From positions 1-47,658 of the forward strand of contig JABXHV010000039.1 in assembly GCA_013373445.1 (NCBI GenBank): a stretch of DNA of 47,658 bases, written 5' to 3'. Positions 16,588 through 35,356 of the stretch are shown piece after piece. Position 1 is the first letter of the stretch; each line of letters starts with the position of its first letter. The stretch is from Paracoccaceae bacterium (GTDB lineage Bacteria > Pseudomonadota > Alphaproteobacteria > Rhizobiales > Stappiaceae). The notes beneath the pieces are model-generated. The model saw only the letters and a list, made by a program, of their open reading frames with translations. It did not search any database and had not been told where the DNA came from. Position numbers and translations under genes: made by a program.

Positions 16588-17502
16588 TTAGCCTGTTTCG
16601 ATACCGAGCTTGCGGCAAATTTCGTCGAGCTGCTCCAAAGAGGTGTATTTGATTTTCAAATCACCACTCTCTTTGCCTGGCTTATGACCAACACTAACCT
16701 TGAGACCCAGAAAATCGCTTAGACGCTTTTCAAGCGCCTTTGTATCTGCGTCTTTTTCCTTCTTGACGGTCTCTGGCTTGGCGCCAGACAAAAGGCGCTC
16801 AAGAGCTTCGGGATCTTGCGCCAGTTTTTCCGTCTCGCGCACCGTCAGGTTTTTCTCAACAATGAAATCAGCAAACGCTGCAGGATCTTCAATCGTGATC
16901 AATGCACGTGCATGACCGGCGGTCAAAAGCCCTTCAGAGAGGTAATCTTTCACCGAATTGGGAAGCTTGAGGAGCCGCATGGTATTCGCAACATGACTAC
17001 GGCTTTTGCCAATCACCTTTGCGAGCTCACCCTGACTATAGCTGAATTCAGCCGTCAGCTGTCCATAACCCATTGCTTCTTCGATAGGATTCAGATCCGC
17101 GCGTTGGACGTTTTCAATAATCGCGAGCTCAAGAGCTTCCTGATCAGTGACATCACGAATAACAACCGGGGCCTCATGAAGCCCTGCACGTTGAGCAGCA
17201 CGCCAACGACGCTCACCGGCGATGATTTCAAACCTGTTTGGATTTGATGCCGATGGACGGACCAGGATAGGCTGAACGATGCCTTTGGCCTTCAAGGATT
17301 CAGAAAGGTCCGCCAGATCTTTTTCTGCAAATGTTTTGCGCGGGTTGCGCGGATTAGGCACCAGATGCTCGATCGGAACCTTGCGACTATCACGCTGTAT
17401 GGCAGCGCGCTCAGTTGTTGCCGGCTCCTGAATGGCTGAATCACCAATCAAAGCAGCCAATCCACGTCCCAAGCGTTTGTTTTTATTTGAATCTTCAGCC
17501 AT
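16588..17502 (-). CDS. parB: Chromosome partitioning protein ParB
   Basis: ParB binds parS sites near the origin, spreads as a CTP-dependent clamp and works with ParA in origin segregation. In order: KRLGRGLAALIG at the N-terminus (the ParA-contact region), GIVQPILVRP (74-83), the CTP-binding GERRWRA (97-103), ENVQRADLNPIEEA (130-143), the helix-turn-helix region YSQGELAKVIGKSRSHVANTMRL (155-177) and a C-terminal dimerisation domain. It has 304 residues, typical of Rhizobiales. Five parS sites that it should recognise lie 1.5-6 kb away. It follows parA by 109 bases in one transcription direction. Confidence 0.97.
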   Translation of the reverse strand: MAEDSNKNKRLGRGLAALIGDSAIQEPATTERAAIQRDSRKVPIEHLVPNPRNPRKTFAEKDLADLSESLKAKGIVQPILVRPSASNPNRFEIIAGERRWRAAQRAGLHEAPVVIRDVTDQEALELAIIENVQRADLNPIEEAMGYGQLTAEFSYSQGELAKVIGKSRSHVANTMRLLKLPNSVKDYLSEGLLTAGHARALITIEDPAAFADFIVEKNLTVRETEKLAQDPEALERLLSGAKPETVKKEKDADTKALEKRLSDFLGLKVSVGHKPGKESGDLKIKYTSLEQLDEICRKLGIETG

Positions 17503-17611: not shown

Positions 17612-18436
17612 TCAGGCGGCAACGCTGCGCAAGTCTCGCTCACGCTGAATAATTTCCGAAGCAAGCCGCAAATAGGCCTGGCTACCTGAACACTTCAGAT
17701 CATAAAGAAGTGCAGGCTTTCCGTATGAAGGTGCTTCTGAAATCCGCACATTCCGAGGAATGATCGTCTCATAAACCGCATCGCCCATCGTTTCACGTAC
17801 ATCGGCAACGACTTGGGCCGACAGATTGTTACGGCTGTCGTACATGGTCAGAACAATACCGTGAATTGTCAGTTCCGGGTTCAACGCGCCACGCACCTGC
17901 TCAACCGTACTCAACAGCTGGCTCAGACCTTCCAGCGCGAAAAACTCACATTGCAAGGGCACGAGAATTGAATGGGACGCCGACAAGGCATTAATTGTCA
18001 AAAGGTTCAACGAAGGCGGGCAATCGATCAAGACGTATGTAAACCCAAGTTCCTGATAAAGCCTGGAGTGAGACAAACGTTTGATGGAGTCACGCAAACG
18101 GAATGCTCGATCCGAAGTTGAAGCAATTTCCAGCTCAAGACCAAGAAGATCCATCGTGGACGGTGCCACATAAAGACCGCTGATGCCGGTGTCCTTGACA
18201 GCTTCCTCCAACGCGCAATCACCGCTGAGGACATCGTAGGTGGAAAGCTCACGATCTCGGCGCTCAATACCCAAACCCGTGGAGGCGTTACCTTGTGGGT
18301 CAAGGTCAATCACCAGGACCTTTTCGCCAATCGCCGCCAAAGCGGTTCCCAAATTAATTGCTGTCGTGGTTTTACCCACTCCACCCTTTTGGTTGGCAAG
18401 GGCTAGAACGCGGGGACTTTCTGGAAGCATGCTCAT
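17612..18436 (-). CDS. parA: Chromosome partitioning ATPase ParA
   Basis: ParA is a deviant-Walker ATPase that dimerises on nucleoid DNA and moves ParB-parS complexes. Motifs are KGGVGKTTTAINLG with the signature lysine (about 17-30), VIDLDPQGNASTG and LIDCPPSLNLLT. The start is ATG 18436 (MSMLPESPRVLALANQ), with AAGGTG seven bases upstream and 20 bases after the rsmG stop. A longer in-frame ORF to 18511 would overlap rsmG and adds residues foreign to the family. It is 274 residues and lies in the order mnmG-rsmG-parA-parB. Confidence 0.96.
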   Translation of the reverse strand: MSMLPESPRVLALANQKGGVGKTTTAINLGTALAAIGEKVLVIDLDPQGNASTGLGIERRDRELSTYDVLSGDCALEEAVKDTGISGLYVAPSTMDLLGLELEIASTSDRAFRLRDSIKRLSHSRLYQELGFTYVLIDCPPSLNLLTINALSASHSILVPLQCEFFALEGLSQLLSTVEQVRGALNPELTIHGIVLTMYDSRNNLSAQVVADVRETMGDAVYETIIPRNVRISEAPSYGKPALLYDLKCSGSQAYLRLASEIIQRERDLRSVAA

Positions 18437-18455
18437 ACAGCGACACCTTTCCGGG

Positions 18456-19115
18456 CTACGGCCGGTAGGAAATGTTTGAAAGAAGAAGCATTCGGCTTGT
18501 TGGTTCAACAAGACTTTCTCTTTCTAACATGTCGAAGGTCCAAACGTGAGACGCTTCGTTAACTTCTCGTTGAAAATCTTGACCTTTGTGGAAAACACAC
18601 GCAGTTCCTGCCTGCGTGAAGGGCTCCGACAGTTTCAAAAGCAAATCAAGCGATGCCAGAGCACGTGCCGAAACCGCATCAACCCTGCCGTTTTTCCAAT
18701 CTTTCGCAACCGATTCGATACGTCCGGCGAAAACTGTGCCTTTGGAACCTGTCTCACGCAGAGCTGTGCGTAAAAAGGCCGCCTTCCGTTGATTGCTTTC
18801 AATCATGTAGACATGGGCATCAGGATCATCTGCCTGCAAAATTGCGGTCACAACGCCGGGAAATCCTGCTCCGCTGCCGATGTCGACCCATGTCTTCGCG
18901 TCAGGCAAAGTCCATTTCGTTTGAAGACTGTCAACGACATGCCGCACCCATATATCAGCAATTGTCGAGGGTGCGATTAAATTTTGAGCGGGTTGCCACT
19001 TGAGAACGAGATCGACGTAAATTTGTAATCTCTCGATTGTTTCACGTGAAACATCCCCATAGTTATTCACAATCGATGAAGAGTTATTCAAGATGACATT
19101 CTTCACCATCGTCAC
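18456..19115 (-). CDS. rsmG: 16S rRNA (guanine-527-N7)-methyltransferase
   Basis: RsmG methylates G527 of 16S rRNA, and its loss gives low streptomycin resistance. Motifs are [14 protein letters not shown] (SAM binding, about 76-89), [14 protein letters not shown] and [13 protein letters not shown]. The GTG start at 19115 overlaps the mnmG stop (GTGA), with AAGGG six bases upstream; ATG 19109 is an alternative. The N-terminal residues DVSRET are encoded by a perfect parS site, a known coincidence of rsmG genes in several phyla. It is 219 residues. Confidence 0.95.
19038..19053. promoter_or_regulatory. parS site 1 (inside rsmG)
   Basis: The 16-base perfect palindrome TGTTTCACGTGAAACA is the consensus ParB-binding site. 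It lies within the coding sequence of rsmG, in codons for Val-Ser-Arg-Glu-Thr. Confidence 0.95.
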
Positions 19116-21267: not shown

Positions 21268-21283
21268 TGATTCACGTGAAACA
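21268..21283. promoter_or_regulatory. parS site 2
   Basis: TGATTCACGTGAAACA matches the parS consensus with one arm substitution. It lies between mnmE and mnmG. Confidence 0.9.
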
Positions 21284-21304: not shown

Positions 21305-21320
21305 TGATTCACGTGAAACA
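21305..21320. promoter_or_regulatory. parS site 3
   Basis: TGATTCACGTGAAACA, identical to site 2 and 37 bases from it, ends four bases before the mnmE stop codon. Confidence 0.9.
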
Positions 21321-22858: not shown

Positions 22859-22874
22859 TGTTTCACGTGAATCA
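22859..22874. promoter_or_regulatory. parS site 4
   Basis: TGTTTCACGTGAATCA, which reads TGATTCACGTGAAACA on the minus strand, lies in the 220-base gap between the acetyltransferase gene and mnmE. Confidence 0.9.
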
Positions 22875-22894: not shown

Positions 22895-23443
22895 CTATGG
22901 CCTGGAAAGACGGTATAGAACGTGTCTTTGAAGAGGGTGCTGATCCGGGAGAGCGGGATGAAGAAAATCATCATCTACGGTTCGGCGCATTCCAATACGC
23001 TCCATCACGCGCTGCGATCTTCTGTTCTGTTCAGCAGTGAAAGATACAATCTCGGAAAGACCGAGAGTTTCGAAACCGAATCCAAGCCAGCATAAAGCAG
23101 CTTCACTAGCATAACCCCTCCCCCAAAATTTCTTATCGAGACGCCAACCAATCTCAACGCATGGCTGAAATGGGACTGGTGATGGAAAGCTTGGAACAGA
23201 TAGGCCGACAAAGCCTATGAATGATCCGGTATCCTTTTCCTCTGCCGGTTGAAAACAAAAACCATCATTGAGAAATTTCGTCTGCGCACGTGAGACGAGA
23301 TCGTCACTTTGGGTACGTGTCAGTGTCGATGGAAAGTACTCCATGACCATCGGATCTGCATTCATCTCAGCGAAGGGCGCTAGATCCTCATCACGCCAAG
23401 GTCTTAGAATAAGCCGATCAGTTTCGAGATAGATATCAGACAT
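22895..23443 (-). CDS. GNAT family N-acetyltransferase (RimJ/RimL-like)
   Basis: This 182-residue protein begins MSDIYLETDRLILRPWRDEDL, the usual opening of RimJ/RimL-type GNAT enzymes, and has the acetyl-CoA pyrophosphate loop as KFWGRGYASEA, followed by a C-terminal strand with SQRVMERIGM. It should transfer an acetyl group from acetyl-CoA to an amine. The substrate cannot be told from sequence; N-terminal amines of proteins and small molecules are both possible. ATG 23443 is preferred over an in-frame TTG at 23467. It sits between mnmE and rho, flanked on both sides by parS sites, a position where many relatives have no gene. Confidence 0.85.
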   Translation of the reverse strand: MSDIYLETDRLILRPWRDEDLAPFAEMNADPMVMEYFPSTLTRTQSDDLVSRAQTKFLNDGFCFQPAEEKDTGSFIGFVGLSVPSFPSPVPFQPCVEIGWRLDKKFWGRGYASEAALCWLGFGFETLGLSEIVSFTAEQNRRSQRVMERIGMRRTVDDDFLHPALPDQHPLQRHVLYRLSRP

Positions 23444-23481
23444 CTGGTTGGTTCGTTTCCGATTCAAAAAGACGGTGAAGA

Positions 23482-23497
23482 TGATTCACGTGAAACA
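23482..23497. promoter_or_regulatory. parS site 5
   Basis: TGATTCACGTGAAACA lies between the acetyltransferase start and the rho terminator, in the opposite relative orientation to site 4. Confidence 0.9.
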
Positions 23498-25088: not shown

Positions 25089-25517
25089 TTAGAAAGGCTT
25101 GCCGACAACAAGAATAACAATACCGATCATCAAGATCGTCGGAACCTCATTTAAAAACCGATAGTATTTTGTCGATTTCTTGTTTTCATCTTTCGCGAAG
25201 TTCTTAACACAACGCGAAAGGTATCCATGAATACCTGATAATATGATTACCAATGTAAACTTTGCGTGAAACCAGGGATCCGAAAACGCTGAAATCTCAT
25301 AGGCAACCCACAGACCAAATATCCAGGATGCAACCATCGCAGGATTAATGATCGCCTTGAGCAACCGACGCTCCATCACTTTCAAAAGTTCAGAGGCTTC
25401 AGATCCGATTTCTGTCTGGGTGTGATAGACGAACAAGCGCGGCAGATACAGCATTCCCGCCATCCAGGAAATAACTGAAATGACATGCAGCGATTTCACC
25501 CACTCGTAAGTTCCCAT
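25089..25517 (-). CDS. hemJ: Protoporphyrinogen oxidase HemJ
   Basis: HemJ oxidises protoporphyrinogen IX to protoporphyrin IX in the inner membrane, the penultimate step of haem synthesis. The 142-residue protein has four hydrophobic segments and the family pattern with His11 in KSLHVISVISWMAGMLYLPRLFVYH, Arg and Lys at LLKAIINPAM, and a conserved C-terminal PTILMIGIVILVV. The ATG overlaps the hemE stop by one base (TAATG), with GGAG seven bases upstream inside hemE. The pairing with hemE supports a haem role. Confidence 0.93.
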   Translation of the reverse strand: MGTYEWVKSLHVISVISWMAGMLYLPRLFVYHTQTEIGSEASELLKVMERRLLKAIINPAMVASWIFGLWVAYEISAFSDPWFHAKFTLVIILSGIHGYLSRCVKNFAKDENKKSTKYYRFLNEVPTILMIGIVILVVGKPF

Positions 25518-26548
25518 TATTTCGCTCCCCTTACACGTTCGACCATCCTGGCAACATTGTCCGGATCCGCATCTGGCGTCACACCGTGTCCAAGATTGAA
25601 AATCAGTGGTCCGTTGCCAAGTGTCTCAAGGATGTGATCAACTCCTTCATCGAGAGCCGGGCCTCCGGCCACCAGACGCATCGGATCAAGGTTGCCCTGA
25701 ATTGGCACCCGCTTTTGAATGTCGAGCGCTATGGAATCCGGAGCTGTCCAATCCAGGCCTATCGCATCAACACCCGTTTCCTCGATGAAAAGTTTCAAAC
25801 GTGCGGATGACGCCTTGGGAAAACCAATGATCTTGGCATTTGGGCGTTGCGCCTTCACGCCAGAGACAATCGCCTTCGTCGGTTCAATCGACCAACGCCT
25901 GAAACCCGCATCATCCAGAACACCTGCCCAGGTATCAAAAATCTGAACCGCGTCAGCACCGGCATCGAGCTGTCGAACAAGATAGGCGATCGATGCTGTG
26001 ATCAGATGATCGATAAAACGACCAAGCAGTTCAGGATCACGATAGGATCCAATTCTCGCTGCAGTTTGATCCGGTGTTGTATGACCGGCAACAGAATAGC
26101 ACGCTACGGTCCAGGGAGCGCCACAGAAGCCCAACAACGTGGTTTCTACTGGCAGGTCCCTTCTGAGACGAGAAACAGTCTCTATGACCGGTTTAAGATG
26201 ATCTTCAGCCTTAGCCTGATCCAGCTGATCTATGAGATGGGAAGACAGAGGTTCGAGTACAGGACCACGTCCTTCCTCAAAGCGAACGGGATAACCGATT
26301 GCATCCGGAACGACGAAGATGTCTGAGAACAGGATGCTTGCATCAAAGCCATATCTGCGGATCGGTTGAAGTGTGACTTCGGTTGCCAGATCAGGATTGT
26401 AACAAAACTCGAGGAAGTTTTTCGCCTGCTTCCTGACTTCCCGATATTCCGGCAGATAACGTCCTGCTTGTCGCATCATCCAGATGGGAGGTGGCCATAG
26501 CTTTTCGCCTGCCAGAACTCTCATCACTGATCTGTCTTCCGACTTCAT
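25517..26548 (-). CDS. hemE: Uroporphyrinogen decarboxylase
   Basis: HemE removes four carboxyl groups from uroporphyrinogen III to give coproporphyrinogen III. The N-terminal signature PPIWMMRQAGRYLPEYR (about 18-34) and the second signature GFCGAPWTVACY are intact, as is the catalytic aspartate in ILFSDIFVVPDA. It is 343 residues. It is the first gene leftward of the putative replication origin, exactly as in Caulobacter crescentus, and forms an operon with hemJ. Confidence 0.97.
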   Translation of the reverse strand: MKSEDRSVMRVLAGEKLWPPPIWMMRQAGRYLPEYREVRKQAKNFLEFCYNPDLATEVTLQPIRRYGFDASILFSDIFVVPDAIGYPVRFEEGRGPVLEPLSSHLIDQLDQAKAEDHLKPVIETVSRLRRDLPVETTLLGFCGAPWTVACYSVAGHTTPDQTAARIGSYRDPELLGRFIDHLITASIAYLVRQLDAGADAVQIFDTWAGVLDDAGFRRWSIEPTKAIVSGVKAQRPNAKIIGFPKASSARLKLFIEETGVDAIGLDWTAPDSIALDIQKRVPIQGNLDPMRLVAGGPALDEGVDHILETLGNGPLIFNLGHGVTPDADPDNVARMVERVRGAK

Positions 26549-26764
26549 TGAACGTCTGCCTTTTCCCTGAATCTAAATAAATAAGATTCTTAAGTTTGAA
26601 TCTGTTTTTTATTATTGAGCGTGGATTACAGGGATCATTAATTGTCCACAACACATCAGAAGGCAAATCGGTCTTGGACAATTCGTCTCAGCTTATGGAC
26701 AAGTTAGCCTCCACAGGAGTCGATAACTCTAAAAGCCTTTCATAAAAAGATACTTAGAGAAAAA

Positions 26765-26779
26765 TTAACCATTCGTTAG
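26765..26779. promoter_or_regulatory. CtrA-type box in the origin region (one mismatch)
   Basis: TTAA, seven bases, TTAG. The consensus for the alphaproteobacterial cell-cycle regulator CtrA is TTAA-N7-TTAA. It lies about 90 bases from the better copy. Confidence 0.5.
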
Positions 26780-26855
26780 CGAATTGGGCGACTGCGGAAA
26801 ACATGGTGATGAATTCAGACAACCTGTTAATCCACAGACAGCCGAATTCGTTTCG

Positions 26856-26870
26856 TTAAGATTCCATTAA
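26856..26870. promoter_or_regulatory. CtrA-type box in the origin region (perfect)
   Basis: TTAA-GATTCCA-TTAA matches the CtrA consensus exactly. The spacer contains a GATTC site, a target of the CcrM methyltransferase. Confidence 0.65.
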
Positions 26871-27068
26871 GAATTGAGGCGTGTTCACAAAACCGTCGCA
26901 GTGGGCATAAGTTTCGCCGGATTATCTGCAGGACCGGATAATCCCCTTTTCATCAACAGCACTGGGGATGAACCTGTGCGAAAACCTCATTTCGGTAGAT
27001 GGGTTTTCAATTTCATCAAGGCGAACAACCAGATATGCTCTCGGAAATAGAGATGTTGGGAGAAAAAC

Positions 27069-27662
27069 ATGAAAATTGTTCTGGCCAGCGGAAGCCGTAT
27101 CCGCGCCGAGCTCTTGCAAAATGCCGGGCTTAAAATTGACATTGATCCTGCTTCTGTCGACGAGCGTGCAATTGAGGCACCATTGATCGAAGCCGGTGTT
27201 TCTCCTGAGGATCATGCAAGCGTTTTGGCGGAGGCAAAAGCCTTAAATGTTGCTGCGCGTCGCCCTGATGATTTGGTCATTGGTGCCGACCAGGTCCTGG
27301 CCTTTGACGGCAGACGCTACACAAAGCCGGAAGATATGACAGCCGCCCGAAGACAGCTTCTTGAATTTTCTGGCAAAACTCATGAGCTTCTGTCTGCCGT
27401 CGTCATTACTCAAAAGGATCAAACAATCTGGCGTCATGTATCGACGGCTCGGCTGACAATGCGCGATCTGACGCCGGAATTCATTGGTCGTTATTTGTCA
27501 GCTGCTGGCGAGTCTGCACTGTCGAGCGTGGGCGCCTATCAACTCGAAGGACTCGGCGTTCAGTTGTTCGAAAAAATTGAAGGTGACTATTTCACCATCC
27601 TCGGACTTCCGTTGCTTCCGTTGCTTGCTCAGCTTCGGTCAATGGAGATTTTGGAAAAATGA
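27069..27662 (+). CDS. maf: Maf-like nucleotide pyrophosphatase
   Basis: Maf proteins hydrolyse non-canonical or methylated nucleoside triphosphates. This 197-residue protein has the N-terminal SGSRIRAELLQNAGL phosphate-binding region (the family motif is S-x-S-x-R-x-x-L-L), the Glu-Arg pair in VDERAIEA, LVIGADQVLAFDG with the catalytic aspartate, and the C-terminal GAYQLEGLGVQLFEKIEGDYFTILGLPL. I cannot tell from sequence whether it is specific for m7GTP (YceF type) or dTTP/UTP (Maf type). A GGGAG ribosome site precedes the ATG. It overlaps aroE by four bases and is the first gene on the right side of the putative origin. Confidence 0.92.
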   Translation: MKIVLASGSRIRAELLQNAGLKIDIDPASVDERAIEAPLIEAGVSPEDHASVLAEAKALNVAARRPDDLVIGADQVLAFDGRRYTKPEDMTAARRQLLEFSGKTHELLSAVVITQKDQTIWRHVSTARLTMRDLTPEFIGRYLSAAGESALSSVGAYQLEGLGVQLFEKIEGDYFTILGLPLLPLLAQLRSMEILEK

Positions 27663-31821: not shown

Positions 31822-32637
31822 TCAGTCAGGTTTTTCGCCTTCTTGAACCTTCAGTTCATTAAGGCGAGGCATCGACATGATATTGTATCCGCTGTCGACA
31901 AAGTGAATTTCACCCGTAACACCGCCGGACAGATCAGAAAGCAGATACAGGCTGGTACCACCAATTTCTTCCAGAGAAACGGTGCGGCAAAGCGGAGCAT
32001 TGCGCTTCTGGTAGTTATACATCAAACGGGCATCGGAAACGCCGGACCCTGCGAGAGTACGAACAGGACCAGCCGAAACGGCGTTTACCCGAATGTTCTG
32101 CTCGCCGTAATCTACAGCCAGATAGCGCACGGAAGACTCCAGCGCTGCCTTTGCAACACCCATGACATTGTAGTTCGGCATCACCTTCGTGGAGCCACCA
32201 TAAGTCAAGGTGATCATGGATCCACCGTCGGTCATGAGTTCCGCGGCCCGCTTGGCAATCTCCGTAAATGAGAAGCAGGAAATCACCATGGTGCGGGAGA
32301 AGTTCTCACGAGACGTGTCGGCATATTTGCCGCGCAGTTCTGTCTTGTCGGAAAAGCCGATTGCATGAACGAGAAAGTCGATTGAACCCCACTCGTTTTT
32401 CAGCGTTTCGAAAACAGAATCCACCGATTCAATGTCTTCGACATCGCACGGCAGGACCAATGATGAATTGACAGATTCAGCCAAAGGCTTGATCCGCTTG
32501 CCAAAAGCTTCACCCTGGTAGGTAAAGGCCAACTCCGCCCCATGGTCAGCCAAAGTCTTGGCGATACCCCATGCGATGGAGTGGTTGTTCGCAACACCCA
32601 TGATGAGTCCGCGTTTGCCCTTCATAAGATCAGACAT
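31822..32637 (-). CDS. fabI: Enoyl-[acyl-carrier-protein] reductase (NADH)
   Basis: FabI reduces the trans-2 double bond in each cycle of fatty acid elongation. This short-chain dehydrogenase has GVANNHSIAWGIAK at the nucleotide site and the catalytic Tyr156-x6-Lys163 spacing that marks FabI. The 271-residue length is normal. It lies 11 bases after fabB in the same direction; the order fabA-fabB-fabI is an operon typical of Rhizobiales for the anaerobic-type unsaturated fatty acid pathway. FabI enzymes with this motif are generally triclosan targets. Confidence 0.96.
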   Translation of the reverse strand: MSDLMKGKRGLIMGVANNHSIAWGIAKTLADHGAELAFTYQGEAFGKRIKPLAESVNSSLVLPCDVEDIESVDSVFETLKNEWGSIDFLVHAIGFSDKTELRGKYADTSRENFSRTMVISCFSFTEIAKRAAELMTDGGSMITLTYGGSTKVMPNYNVMGVAKAALESSVRYLAVDYGEQNIRVNAVSAGPVRTLAGSGVSDARLMYNYQKRNAPLCRTVSLEEIGGTSLYLLSDLSGGVTGEIHFVDSGYNIMSMPRLNELKVQEGEKPD

Positions 32638-32648
32638 TTCGCGTCCCC

Positions 32649-33872
32649 TTATCCGTGGTAGCGAGATAGGGCAAGGGAGGCATTGGTGCCGCCGAAGCCA
32701 AAGCTGTTGGACATAACTGTATCAAGCCCGGCATTGTCGCGGCGCGTTGTAACGATCTCGCCTTCTTTCAATTCCGGATCAAGTTCAGTGATGTTTGCAG
32801 ATGCTGTGATGAAGTCGTTCTGCAGCATCAGCAGACAGTAGATGGCTTCCTGAACGCCCGTGGCACCAAGGCTGTGCCCGGTGAGGGATTTCGTGGAAGA
32901 CACTGGCGGCTGGTTTTCACCAAAGACACTGCGGATGGCTTTGATTTCACCGATATCACCGACAGGTGTCGATGTGCCGTGTGAGTTGATGTAGTCGACC
33001 TTGCGGTCACCAAGAGTCGAAGTGGCAAGACGCATACAGCGCTCACCGCCCTCGCCGGAAGGCGCAACCATGTCATAGCCATCAGAGTTGGCTGCGTAGC
33101 CGGTCACTTCAGCATAGATCGTCGCACCGCGTGCCTTGGCATGTTCCAGTTCTTCAAGAACCACAACGCCGCCGCCGCCGGCAATAATGAAGCCGTCGCG
33201 TGTCGCATCATAGGCGCGCGAAGCGGTTTCTGGTGTGTCATTGTACTTGGAAGACATGGCACCCATGGCATCGAAAAGACAGGACAGTGTCCAGTCAAGT
33301 TCTTCACCTCCACCGGCAAACATTACGTCCTGTTTGCCAAACTGAATCTGTTCGGTCGCCGCACCAATACAATGAGCAGATGTCGAACAAGCCGAGGTGA
33401 TTGAATAGTTGATACCCTTGATCTTGAACGGAGTTGCAAGACAGGCCGAATTGGTCGAGCTCATGCCGCGCGTGACCATGAATGGTCCCATGCGCTTCGG
33501 TGAACCTTTTTCGATGACAATCTTGTGGGCCTGAAACAGGTTTTTGGTAGATGGACCACCAGATCCCATGATCAAACCGGTCCGCTCATTGGAGATGTCT
33601 TTTTCTTCAAGACCGCTTTGAGCAATCGCCTGCTGCATGGCTATGTAGTTATACGCCGCGCCATCACCCATGAACCGAAGCTGACGCTTGTCAATGTGTT
33701 CAGTGGGATCAATGTTCGGCATCCCATGAACCTGACTTCTAAAGCCGTGTTCAGCGTAATCCGGAGCAAAGCTCAGGCCGGATTTTCCTTCACGAAGGCT
33801 GGAAAGCACTTCATCGACGTTTGAACCAATTGAGGAAACAATCCCCATTCCGGTTACAACCACCCGCCTCAT
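32649..33872 (-). CDS. fabB: 3-oxoacyl-[acyl-carrier-protein] synthase I
   Basis: FabB elongates the cis-3-decenoyl intermediate made by FabA, so it is needed for unsaturated fatty acids. The active-site triad is Cys162 in [10 protein letters not shown], His298 in [11 protein letters not shown] and His333 in [10 protein letters not shown], with Lys328. It has 407 residues. The start and pairing with fabA distinguish it from FabF. It lies 120 bases after fabA. Confidence 0.95.
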
Positions 33873-33992
33873 CGCGGTCTCCTATTTCTTTTGGGAACCC
33901 TTCGCCCTTGAATCACCAGGATGGTTCCAACATCAACTCATCCGGTATCACCAAAGTGGTACCGGCAATCCCGTTACAAAGACATTCAAGTC

Positions 33993-34499
33993 TTAAGCTT
34001 TGGCCAATCCGACGCGCAGGTCTGTGGCCTTGTAGATCATTTCACCGTCGGCCTTTAGCCATCCATCGGCAATGCCGAGAACCAGCCGGCCCTTCATGAC
34101 GCGCTTGAAATCAATGCCGTATTCCACGAGCTTGACGTCTGGCGTAACCATGCCCTTGAACTTTACTTCTCCGGTAGAAAGAGCCATGCCCTTACCTTCC
34201 AGACCAAGCCATCCGAGATAAAATCCGGTCAACTGCCACATGGCATCCAGGCCAAGACATCCTGGCATGACCGGGTTGCCTTCGAAGTGGCACGGGAAGA
34301 ACCAGAGGTCCGGATTGATGTCGAATTCTGCACGAGCATAACCCTTGTCGAATTCGCCTCCGGTTTCCGAAATATCCGTGATTCGATCAAACATGAGCAT
34401 TGGCGGCAGCGGCAATTGGGCATTGCCCTCACCAAAAAGTTCGCCTTTTGCGCAGGAAATGAGATCGTCATACGTGAAGCTGGAGCGGCGCTCGGTCAT
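33993..34499 (-). CDS. fabA: 3-hydroxydecanoyl-[acyl-carrier-protein] dehydratase/isomerase
   Basis: FabA dehydrates 3-hydroxydecanoyl-ACP and isomerises the product to the cis-3 form, the branch point to unsaturated fatty acids. The hot-dog fold has the active-site pair His71 in [12 protein letters not shown] and Asp85 in LGLDAMWQL. It has 168 residues, full length. It is the first gene of fabA-fabB-fabI, and the irr gene diverges from it across about 425 bases. Confidence 0.96.
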
Positions 34500-34924
34500 T
34501 CAAAGTCCGTTATCAACTGGGCATCGATGCAGCCCATGTGGCTACAAAGATGAGGGTTGGTGTTAAATTGTTTATGGCGCTTCCTAACACACGAAGAAGG
34601 CAATCGAAAGATCAAGAAATAAGGAAGTTTTGCGTCAAGACGAAACGACGCATTTTGCTAGTTAACGTTCAGGAGGATTATTAATCCAATTGAATAAACG
34701 CTTGCTGCCAAGAGTAAACACTTCAGCGCGCTGTTGGCTGAAGTTAACCAGCGTGTCTGTAAGATTGGTTCAACAAGGCCAATTACAAGATAATTCTTGA
34801 TTGTTGGCCTCAATAAATGCGAAATAGATTATCAAGGACGCGATTTTTAGGCAGCAGTTCATTGAAATTTTGAACCTAAACTGCCTTGTGATAGATTTGG
34901 AATATGAGGGACGTAGGGAACAAC
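34500..34924. other. 425-base divergent region between fabA and irr
   Basis: No gene is visible. The most obvious structure is a nested dyad at 34776-34810: AGGCCAA with TTGGCCT outside and CAAGA with TCTTG around TAAT inside. A smaller dyad, CGCTG/CAGCG, lies at 34729-34753. Promoters for both genes must be here, but I could not assign them. No clear iron-control element was recognised. Confidence 0.5.
34776..34810. promoter_or_regulatory. Nested dyad between fabA and irr (putative operator or RNA hairpin)
   Basis: Outer arms of 7 bases (34776-34782 with 34804-34810) and inner arms of 5 (34786-34790 with 34795-34799) surround a TAAT loop, with small internal loops. No T run follows on either strand, so it is not a simple terminator. 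Confidence 0.4.
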
Positions 34925-35356
34925 ATGTACTCTGACATGTCGATCCATCAGGAAGAACTGAACGTACACCACCTGCTGAGGAACGCTGGTTTGCGTCCGA
35001 CGCGGCAGCGGGTATCTTTGGCTGAGATGCTCTATTCCAAGGGCGACCGGCATATTTCTGCCGAGCTATTGCACGAAGAAGCGGTGGCTGCCGACGTTCC
35101 GGTTTCTCTCGCGACTGTCTACAACACCCTTCACCAATTCACCGAAGCTGGATTGCTGCGTGAAGTCGCTATCGACGGCAACAAGACCTATTTCGATACC
35201 AACGTTTCCGACCACCATCACTTCTTTATCGAGGGTGAGAACAAGGTGATCGATATTCCTGGTGACGTGGTCGGCATCGGATCTATTCCCGAAGCCCCTG
35301 AGGGCATGGAAATCGTTCGCGTCGATGTGGTGGTTCGGGTTCGCCCTAAAACCTGA
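34925..35356 (+). CDS. irr: Iron response regulator Irr (Fur family)
   Basis: Irr is the haem-responsive Fur-family repressor that in Rhizobiales controls haem synthesis and iron storage genes, replacing Fur. The protein has the winged-helix segment AGLRPTRQRVSLAEML followed by HISAELLHEEA and the recognition helix SLATVYNTLHQF, then the histidine cluster DHHHFF (His97-99) where haem binds in the family. The N-terminal Cys-Pro haem motif of Bradyrhizobium Irr is absent, as in Rhizobium and Brucella. ATG 34925 is chosen for AGGGA five bases before it; ATG 34904 is an alternative. It has 143 residues. Confidence 0.92.
   Translation: MYSDMSIHQEELNVHHLLRNAGLRPTRQRVSLAEMLYSKGDRHISAELLHEEAVAADVPVSLATVYNTLHQFTEAGLLREVAIDGNKTYFDTNVSDHHHFFIEGENKVIDIPGDVVGIGSIPEAPEGMEIVRVDVVVRVRPKT

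Follow-up and report, generated by a model that had tools for sequence, protein, structure and literature searches.

The 520-base gap between the divergent hemE and maf-like genes (26549-27068, 41% GC) is very probably the chromosomal replication origin, oriC, of a Roseibium-like alphaproteobacterium. It lies in a stretch of 47,658 bases, hereafter the window, on contig C28 of a 3.64 Mb draft genome in 201 contigs; among named relatives the closest hemE is that of Roseibium (83%). The origin was placed through GC skew and comparison with related genomes, and we are highly confident that the main chromosome starts replication here, from a DnaA-dependent origin of the hemE type known from alphaproteobacteria. 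That it is an ordinary alphaproteobacterial origin is well supported, with two points added to or corrected in the original prediction, made from the letters of this DNA: the CtrA-like box of interest and the derived nature of the right flank. More unusual than the origin itself, and deserving specialist attention, are the presence of GANTC inside the parS sites next to it and a second DnaA protein.

Position of the origin

GC skew within the window is -0.062 to the left of the gap and +0.029 to its right, and its cumulative minimum falls at 26774, inside the gap; the best split lies at the block edge 26000, and none of 5000 block permutations was equally strong. Because the 201 contigs of the source draft cannot be ordered, chromosome skew was sampled in stretches on chromosome-size contigs of two congeners, G035 (a single 5.98 Mb contig) and G005 (a 5.87 Mb contig with the origin locus at 432,080). 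Skew has the sign that a hemE-locus origin would produce in 17 of 19 stretches of G035 and 18 of 20 of G005, two stretches in each showing the opposite sign. In G005 the best skew switch is bracketed between 410 and 460 kb, with the orthologous gap at 432 kb, while in G035 the optimum (4.24-4.49 Mb, fit 0.627) is adjacent to the gap at 4.21 Mb (0.613) without covering it and falls within a sampling gap from 3.96 to 4.55 Mb.

DNA of the gap is matched in all 36 same-genus genomes compared and in 38 of 61 genomes overall, the source genome included, and its alignment with the hemE-ppsR gaps of relatives stops near 26972 (Table 1). Conservation is counted over 32 relatives, of which 30 are distinct (L002 equals L101 and L003 equals L104, the gap of R. 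aestuarii, L003, being identical to that of congener G016, which assigns the window to Roseibium), and these rows are related to one another. The original prediction had read the gap as a chromosomal origin and had proposed GC skew and alignment with the hemE flanks of related genomes as checks. Both speak in its favor, the skew within the window and, by sampling, on two congener contigs, and the alignment through a core conserved in 32 relatives; the coordinates it gave and all the motifs it placed in the gap are also present.

One could instead regard the gap as a mere divergent promoter region of hemE and maf, rich in regulator sites, with the origin located elsewhere, for example at dnaA. 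The two genes are indeed divergent, a GANTC pair and a CtrA-like box could act on hemE and on the genes to the right, and dnaA lies away from hemE on contig C133. However, skew switches at the gap in the window, and at or next to the orthologous gap in the two congeners, whereas dnaA as the origin fits worse in both (0.469 versus 0.613 in G035 and 0.595 versus 0.642 in G005). The 14 kb dnaA contig of the source genome likewise has no lasting skew switch, 12 of its 14 one-kb bins being negative, and on these grounds an origin at dnaA is rejected. Moreover, the conserved DNA stays beside hemE in 32 relatives even though the gene to the right is ppsR in these. We hold the promoter-only reading to be extremely improbable and read the gap as the origin itself; an origin by hemE has also been reported by Ori-Finder for Sphingopyxis (PMC4741004).

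Two features of the surroundings may be recorded here. A fabI-fabB-fabA cluster (minus strand) with a divergent irrA-like regulator occupies 31822-35356 of the window, about 5-8 kb to the right of the origin, and the source genome, at 3.64 Mb, is smaller than all 44 congeners searched (4.4-7.6 Mb).

Table 1. Features of the hemE-maf gap and its surroundings, in window coordinates except for the last row; relatives are the 32 close relatives
Feature	Position	Strand	Basis or conservation
oriC core	26549-26972		part aligning with hemE-ppsR gap of relatives; contains skew minimum
candidate DNA unwinding element	26574-26613		least stable 40-mer of window, nearest-neighbour stability
inverted GANTC pair GATTC-N8-GAATC in unwinding element	26585-26602		GANTC within a few bases of each site in 32/32 relatives
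DnaA box 1 TAATCCACG	26620-26628	-	faces unwinding element; GTGGATT kept in 31/32 relatives
GGGATC block between boxes 1 and 2	26631-26636		mean identity 0.98, 32 relatives
DnaA box 2 TTGTCCACA	26642-26650	+	TCCACA core kept in 31/32 relatives
weak DnaA-like box TTATGGACA	26693-26702	+	26693-26701 one mismatch to TTATNCACA; poorly conserved, mean identity 0.51
conserved block CCTCCACAGGAGTCGATAA	26708-26726		mean identity 0.88; GANTC at 26717-26721 kept in 29/32
conserved CtrA-like box TTAACCATTCGTTAG	26765-26779	+	TTAAN7TTAA matched within one mismatch in 32/32 relatives, perfect in 5
DnaA box TAATCCACA	26828-26836	+	TCCAC kept in 30/32 relatives
perfect TTAAN7TTAA CtrA-type match with GATTC	26856-26870	+	absent from all 32 relatives, one mismatch allowed
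weak conserved DnaA-like box TTATGCCCA	26902-26910	-	one mismatch to TTATNCACA
conserved block TCAACA...TGGGGATGA, far end of origin	26953-26971		mean identity 0.91
stretch beyond relatives' hemE-ppsR gap, where ppsR is missing	26973-27068		alignment end, ppsR search
hemE, uroporphyrinogen decarboxylase, origin-flanking	25517-26548	-	NCBIfam TIGR01464 379 bits, above cut-off; Pfam URO-D
maf-like gene	27069-27662	+	NCBIfam NF002690 above cut-off; Pfam Maf
parB	16588-17502	-	TIGR00180; ParB_N, HTH_ParB, ParB_C
parA	17612-18511	-	ParA-type ATPase models
parS, perfect palindrome, inside rsmG frame (18456-19115)	19038-19053		consensus match
parS with GANTC TGATTCACGTGAAACA, mnmG-mnmE gap	21268-21283	+	consensus match
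parS with GANTC, mnmG-mnmE gap	21305-21320	+	consensus match
parS with GANTC, mirrored half changed, between mnmE and 22895-23467 frame	22859-22874	-	consensus match
parS with GANTC, between 22895-23467 frame and rho	23482-23497	+	consensus match
second dnaA	G000 contig C172, locus L135 955-2577 (also L218)	-	full-length DnaA domains

DnaA boxes, GANTC and CtrA-like boxes

The region of the candidate unwinding element is also the least stable of the window at 60 bases and the third least stable at 100 bases by the same nearest-neighbour measure, and 26574-26616 is 86% A+T. Read on the minus strand, box 1 is followed by a two-base spacer, CT, and then by CAA-TAA-TAA-AAA, a run resembling DnaA-trios. 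Scored against TTATNCACA, which we take to be the DnaA box consensus, the gap contains four DnaA-like boxes at one mismatch, against a mean of 0.50 in dinucleotide shuffles, of which one in 500 reached this number. Across the whole window such boxes are at chance (27 versus 26.3), so that only the local cluster counts. It bears out the predicted boxes at 26642-26650 and 26828-26836 and the weaker one at 26620-26628, and the segment GGGCATAA of a further weak box (26903-26910) has a mean identity of 0.92 among relatives. A perfect TTATNCACA was looked for in the gap and not found, as was a match with up to one mismatch to WATCAANNNNTTR, presumably the IHF consensus, which was not treated as obligatory.

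This arrangement suggests how initiation might proceed. DnaA would bind boxes 1 and 2 and the weaker boxes spread as far as 26971, and would be directed from box 1 onto the A+T-rich element, which would melt and take the helicase. Forks would then exit both ways, to the left through hemE, rho, mnmE, mnmG and parAB and to the right through maf, aroE, coaE and dnaQ.

The five GANTC sites of the original prediction are present in the gap, at a density of 9.6/kb as against 1.9/kb in the window, where GANTC is depleted 2.7-fold (91 versus 248 expected). They are unexceptional for the composition of the gap, 67 of 500 dinucleotide shuffles reaching five (mean 2.79); an enrichment relative to that composition is thus rejected as not significant, and it holds only against the depleted window. 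The density over 73 more distant origins is 9.64/kb versus 2.65/kb over loci L005-L081, and part of this is to be expected because GANTC is reported to be commoner between genes than within them, about 2-fold in Ensifer (PMC8725594). The right-hand member of the inverted pair belongs to a block, GANTC-KGK, at the edge of the unwinding element, which occurs at most 260 bases from hemE in 96 of 106 loci (window included) and in 119 of 2120 mononucleotide-shuffled controls. In the 76 loci having both this block and GGATT, the spacing between them is 17 in 32 loci (including the window), 8 in 42 and 9 in two.

The source genome encodes CtrA (NF045991, 424.7 bits, above the cut-off of 350) and has one match to the N6_N4 methyltransferase family, with N6_N4_Mtase and RAMA domains. 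The latter spans the full CcrM model NF050803 at 617.9 bits and, because this is below the cut-off of 830, is named here only CcrM-like. As both proteins are encoded, regulation of the origin by CtrA and methylation is possible. With TTAAN7TTAA assumed as the CtrA consensus, the gap shows one perfect match (mean 0.02 in dinucleotide shuffles, 9 of 500 reaching it); this box at 26856-26870 and the one-mismatch box at 26765-26779 were both foreseen, and a further one-mismatch box (26754-26768) overlaps the second.

The prediction had gone on to propose that methylation of the GATTC within the perfect box could affect CtrA binding, and on this proposal the origin would be repressed by CtrA at that box and gated by methylation. 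The rarity of a perfect match in shuffled sequence and the presence of ctrA and a gene for a CcrM-like enzyme in the genome are in its favor. However, the box is absent from all 32 relatives even at one mismatch, a GANTC being found at its position in 10 of them, which rules it out as a conserved functional CtrA box. Among 73 more distant origins, a perfect CtrA match is present in 10 and a match within one mismatch in 25, and the S. meliloti origin is reported to have no CtrA motif and not to be bound by CtrA (PMC4433202). CtrA at the origin is thus not general in the order Hyphomicrobiales, and we judge methylation-gated repression through the perfect box to be highly unlikely. The comparison corrects which CtrA-like box merits testing, namely 26765-26779 and not 26856-26870. 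That this imperfect box is a functional CtrA site in the genus, CtrA touching the origin here unlike in S. meliloti, is a serious possibility toward which we nonetheless do not lean. It is retained within one mismatch in all relatives (30 of 30 distinct ones), it contains TTAACCAT, which we take to be a CtrA half-site, and the Pleomorphomonas locus L032 has two perfect boxes; on the other hand it is perfect in only five of 32 relatives, its commonest form being TTTACCTTTCGTTAA (15 rows), and as the rows are related another factor may be what is conserved there. Our preferred reading of the gap, a DnaA-dependent origin of the hemE type, leaves room for CtrA at this box.

GANTC within parS and a second DnaA

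The parABS locus noted close to the origin is there: parA and parB, together with five parS sites within three mismatches of what we take to be the parS consensus, lie 3-10 kb from the gap. ParB loaded on these sites would move the replicated origins apart. Four of the five are TGATTCACGTGAAACA in either orientation, with GATTC in one half of the palindrome. Sites differing from the consensus at no more than two positions were counted in 80 named loci (L002-L081), giving 221 sites against none in the reversed control. GANTC is contained in 134 of the 221, in exactly one half each time, and no site has both halves changed. Half-site position 3 is T 308 times, A 134 times and never C or G, and the 15 occurrences of C at position 4 are always beside A3, so that GANTC is kept; the Fisher p for this coupling, which ignores the relatedness of the loci, is about 1e-8. 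At least one GANTC-bearing parS is found in 70 of 72 loci having any parS.

Wider samples, which overlap one another and probably the named loci too, delimit this pattern; the counts, like those over the loci, take each entry separately irrespective of kinship. An order-wide sample of 297 genomes, itself partly overlapping, yielded 19 C4 sites in 15 genomes, 18 of these having A3 and the remaining one, in G605, T3. Of 27 same-order genomes, counting the source genome, 15 have A3 sites, as against none of 24 belonging to other orders within the class and two of 149 from other classes. In a second class sample of 190 genomes such sites occur in five, three of these being among 187 other-order genomes with one site each. 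A C or G at position 3 of parS is rare, being found once each in G131, G179, G296, G384 and G393, of which G384, from the same order, has a C3 site. Because A3 is nearly confined to same-order genomes, the overlap of parS and GANTC does not follow CcrM in general and is mainly a trait of Hyphomicrobiales. In open-licence full texts we found no description of GANTC inside the parS motif, and the string GATTCACGTGAAAC had no match; GANTC methylation at the Caulobacter parS locus has been reported (PMC5172544).

After initiation, the new copies of the origin and of parS would stay hemimethylated at their GANTC sites until modified by the CcrM-like enzyme. This raises the prospect of an origin-centromere methylation clock in Hyphomicrobiales, in which CcrM sites in parS and at the edge of the unwinding element would be hemimethylated together by firing, methylation or shielding by ParB would tune ParB loading or the segregation of sister origins, and the second DnaA of Roseibium may add a regulator. 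The restriction of the change to A3 (134 of 134), the coupling of C4 to A3 (15 of 15), the lack of sites with both halves altered and the window-wide avoidance of GANTC count for such a clock, whereas the C3 site of G384, the T3-C4 site of G605 and the limitation of A3 to one order count against it. Tolerance of A3 by ParB together with shared ancestry could also explain the pattern, and we offer the clock as a speculative and rather unlikely scheme. If functional, the overlap would connect chromosome segregation with methylation of the CcrM type, a link open to direct testing, in an order that includes widely used symbionts.

The source genome encodes two full-length DnaA proteins, each with DnaA_N, AAA+ and DnaA_C domains. 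In Methylocystis SC2, three DnaA-encoding CDS have been reported (PMC3794950). Of 45 genomes in the genus, 41 have two or more long DnaA matches, with an internal stop in the second copy of G006. When 121 genomes of the order were sampled, at least two such matches were found, among the strong ones listed, only in the source genome and G334. Sixteen of the 41 genomes with a second copy entered the tree and residue comparison, together with a divergent third copy of G017. These 16 second copies form a single clade beside the first copies with a support of 1.0, and the third long match of G017 (C1:4909979-4911370, L192) falls outside it. The second DnaA is fast evolving, median pairwise identity being 56% for the divergent copies versus 90% among first copies. 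The box VII arginine, which from the alignment we presume to be the arginine finger, is retained by 13 of these 16 copies and replaced by leucine in the source genome, tyrosine in L191 and lysine in L194. Because arginine-finger mutants of three DnaA proteins are reported to have failed to unwind origin substrates (PMC8287927), the second DnaA of the source genome is predicted to be incapable of unwinding on its own.

The right flank and comparison with known origins

In 100 of 105 relatives, including all 32 close ones, ppsR (Kinase-PPPase, COG1806) lies inside the hemE-maf gap, the exceptions being L014, L030, L050, L058 and L059; 110 loci had been fetched, and L036, L062, L072 and L075 were dropped as they had no maf match. 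One locus, L070 (JAHREI010000001.1), is titled Bacillus subtilis SK6B4, carries a hemE-ppsR-maf locus of the Hyphomicrobiales type and is probably mislabelled or contaminated. A search of the source draft genome with PF03618 (ppsR) gave no match, although it recovered the family in E. coli, B. subtilis and Caulobacter vibrioides, used as controls, and a tblastn search of the window for a ppsR remnant returned only matches with E of at least 1.5, none within the gap. Since ppsR is kept so widely in relatives, its absence is read as a secondary loss, and it is because of this absence that the maf-like gene adjoins the origin. The comparison thus shows the hemE-maf adjacency to be derived, probably a classical hemE-COG1806 origin after loss of its second flank.

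The origins of Caulobacter and Rickettsia are described as sitting between hemE and COG1806, which bears out the predicted likeness in having hemE beside the origin, and the COG1806 flank is usual rather than obligatory, origins without it being reported in the same work (PMC1914354). The origin described here resembles Cori of Caulobacter crescentus in its hemE flank, its DnaA boxes and an A+T-rich element of some 40 bp, and it has candidate CtrA-like boxes, a kind of site also described for Cori (PMC1914354). It differs in that the other flank is maf, with COG1806/ppsR absent, in having one conserved CtrA-like box as against the five reported for Cori, and in that no IHF consensus was found in the gap of the window.

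A second comparison is with the basal unwinding system, for which we searched for a DnaA box, a spacer of at most 16 bases and at least three NAN repeats (PMC8287927), a permissive rule applied here with our own box pattern. Such a combination is present in 32 of 33 rows, and the likeness consists in box 1, its short spacer and the NAN repeats leading into the unwinding element. What is matched is the published permissive pattern, so that unwinding is here a prediction from sequence.

The closest parallels are the hemE-ppsR origins of other Hyphomicrobiales (Sinorhizobium, Rhizobium, Brucella, Mesorhizobium and others). These differ in that 48 of the 73 more distant origins lack a CtrA match even when one mismatch is allowed. 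They resemble the origin of the window in having hemE beside the gap, in the GANTC-KGK block near hemE, which is found in 63 of these 73 loci outside the close relatives, and in at least one DnaA-like box at one mismatch, which is present in 69 of the 73.
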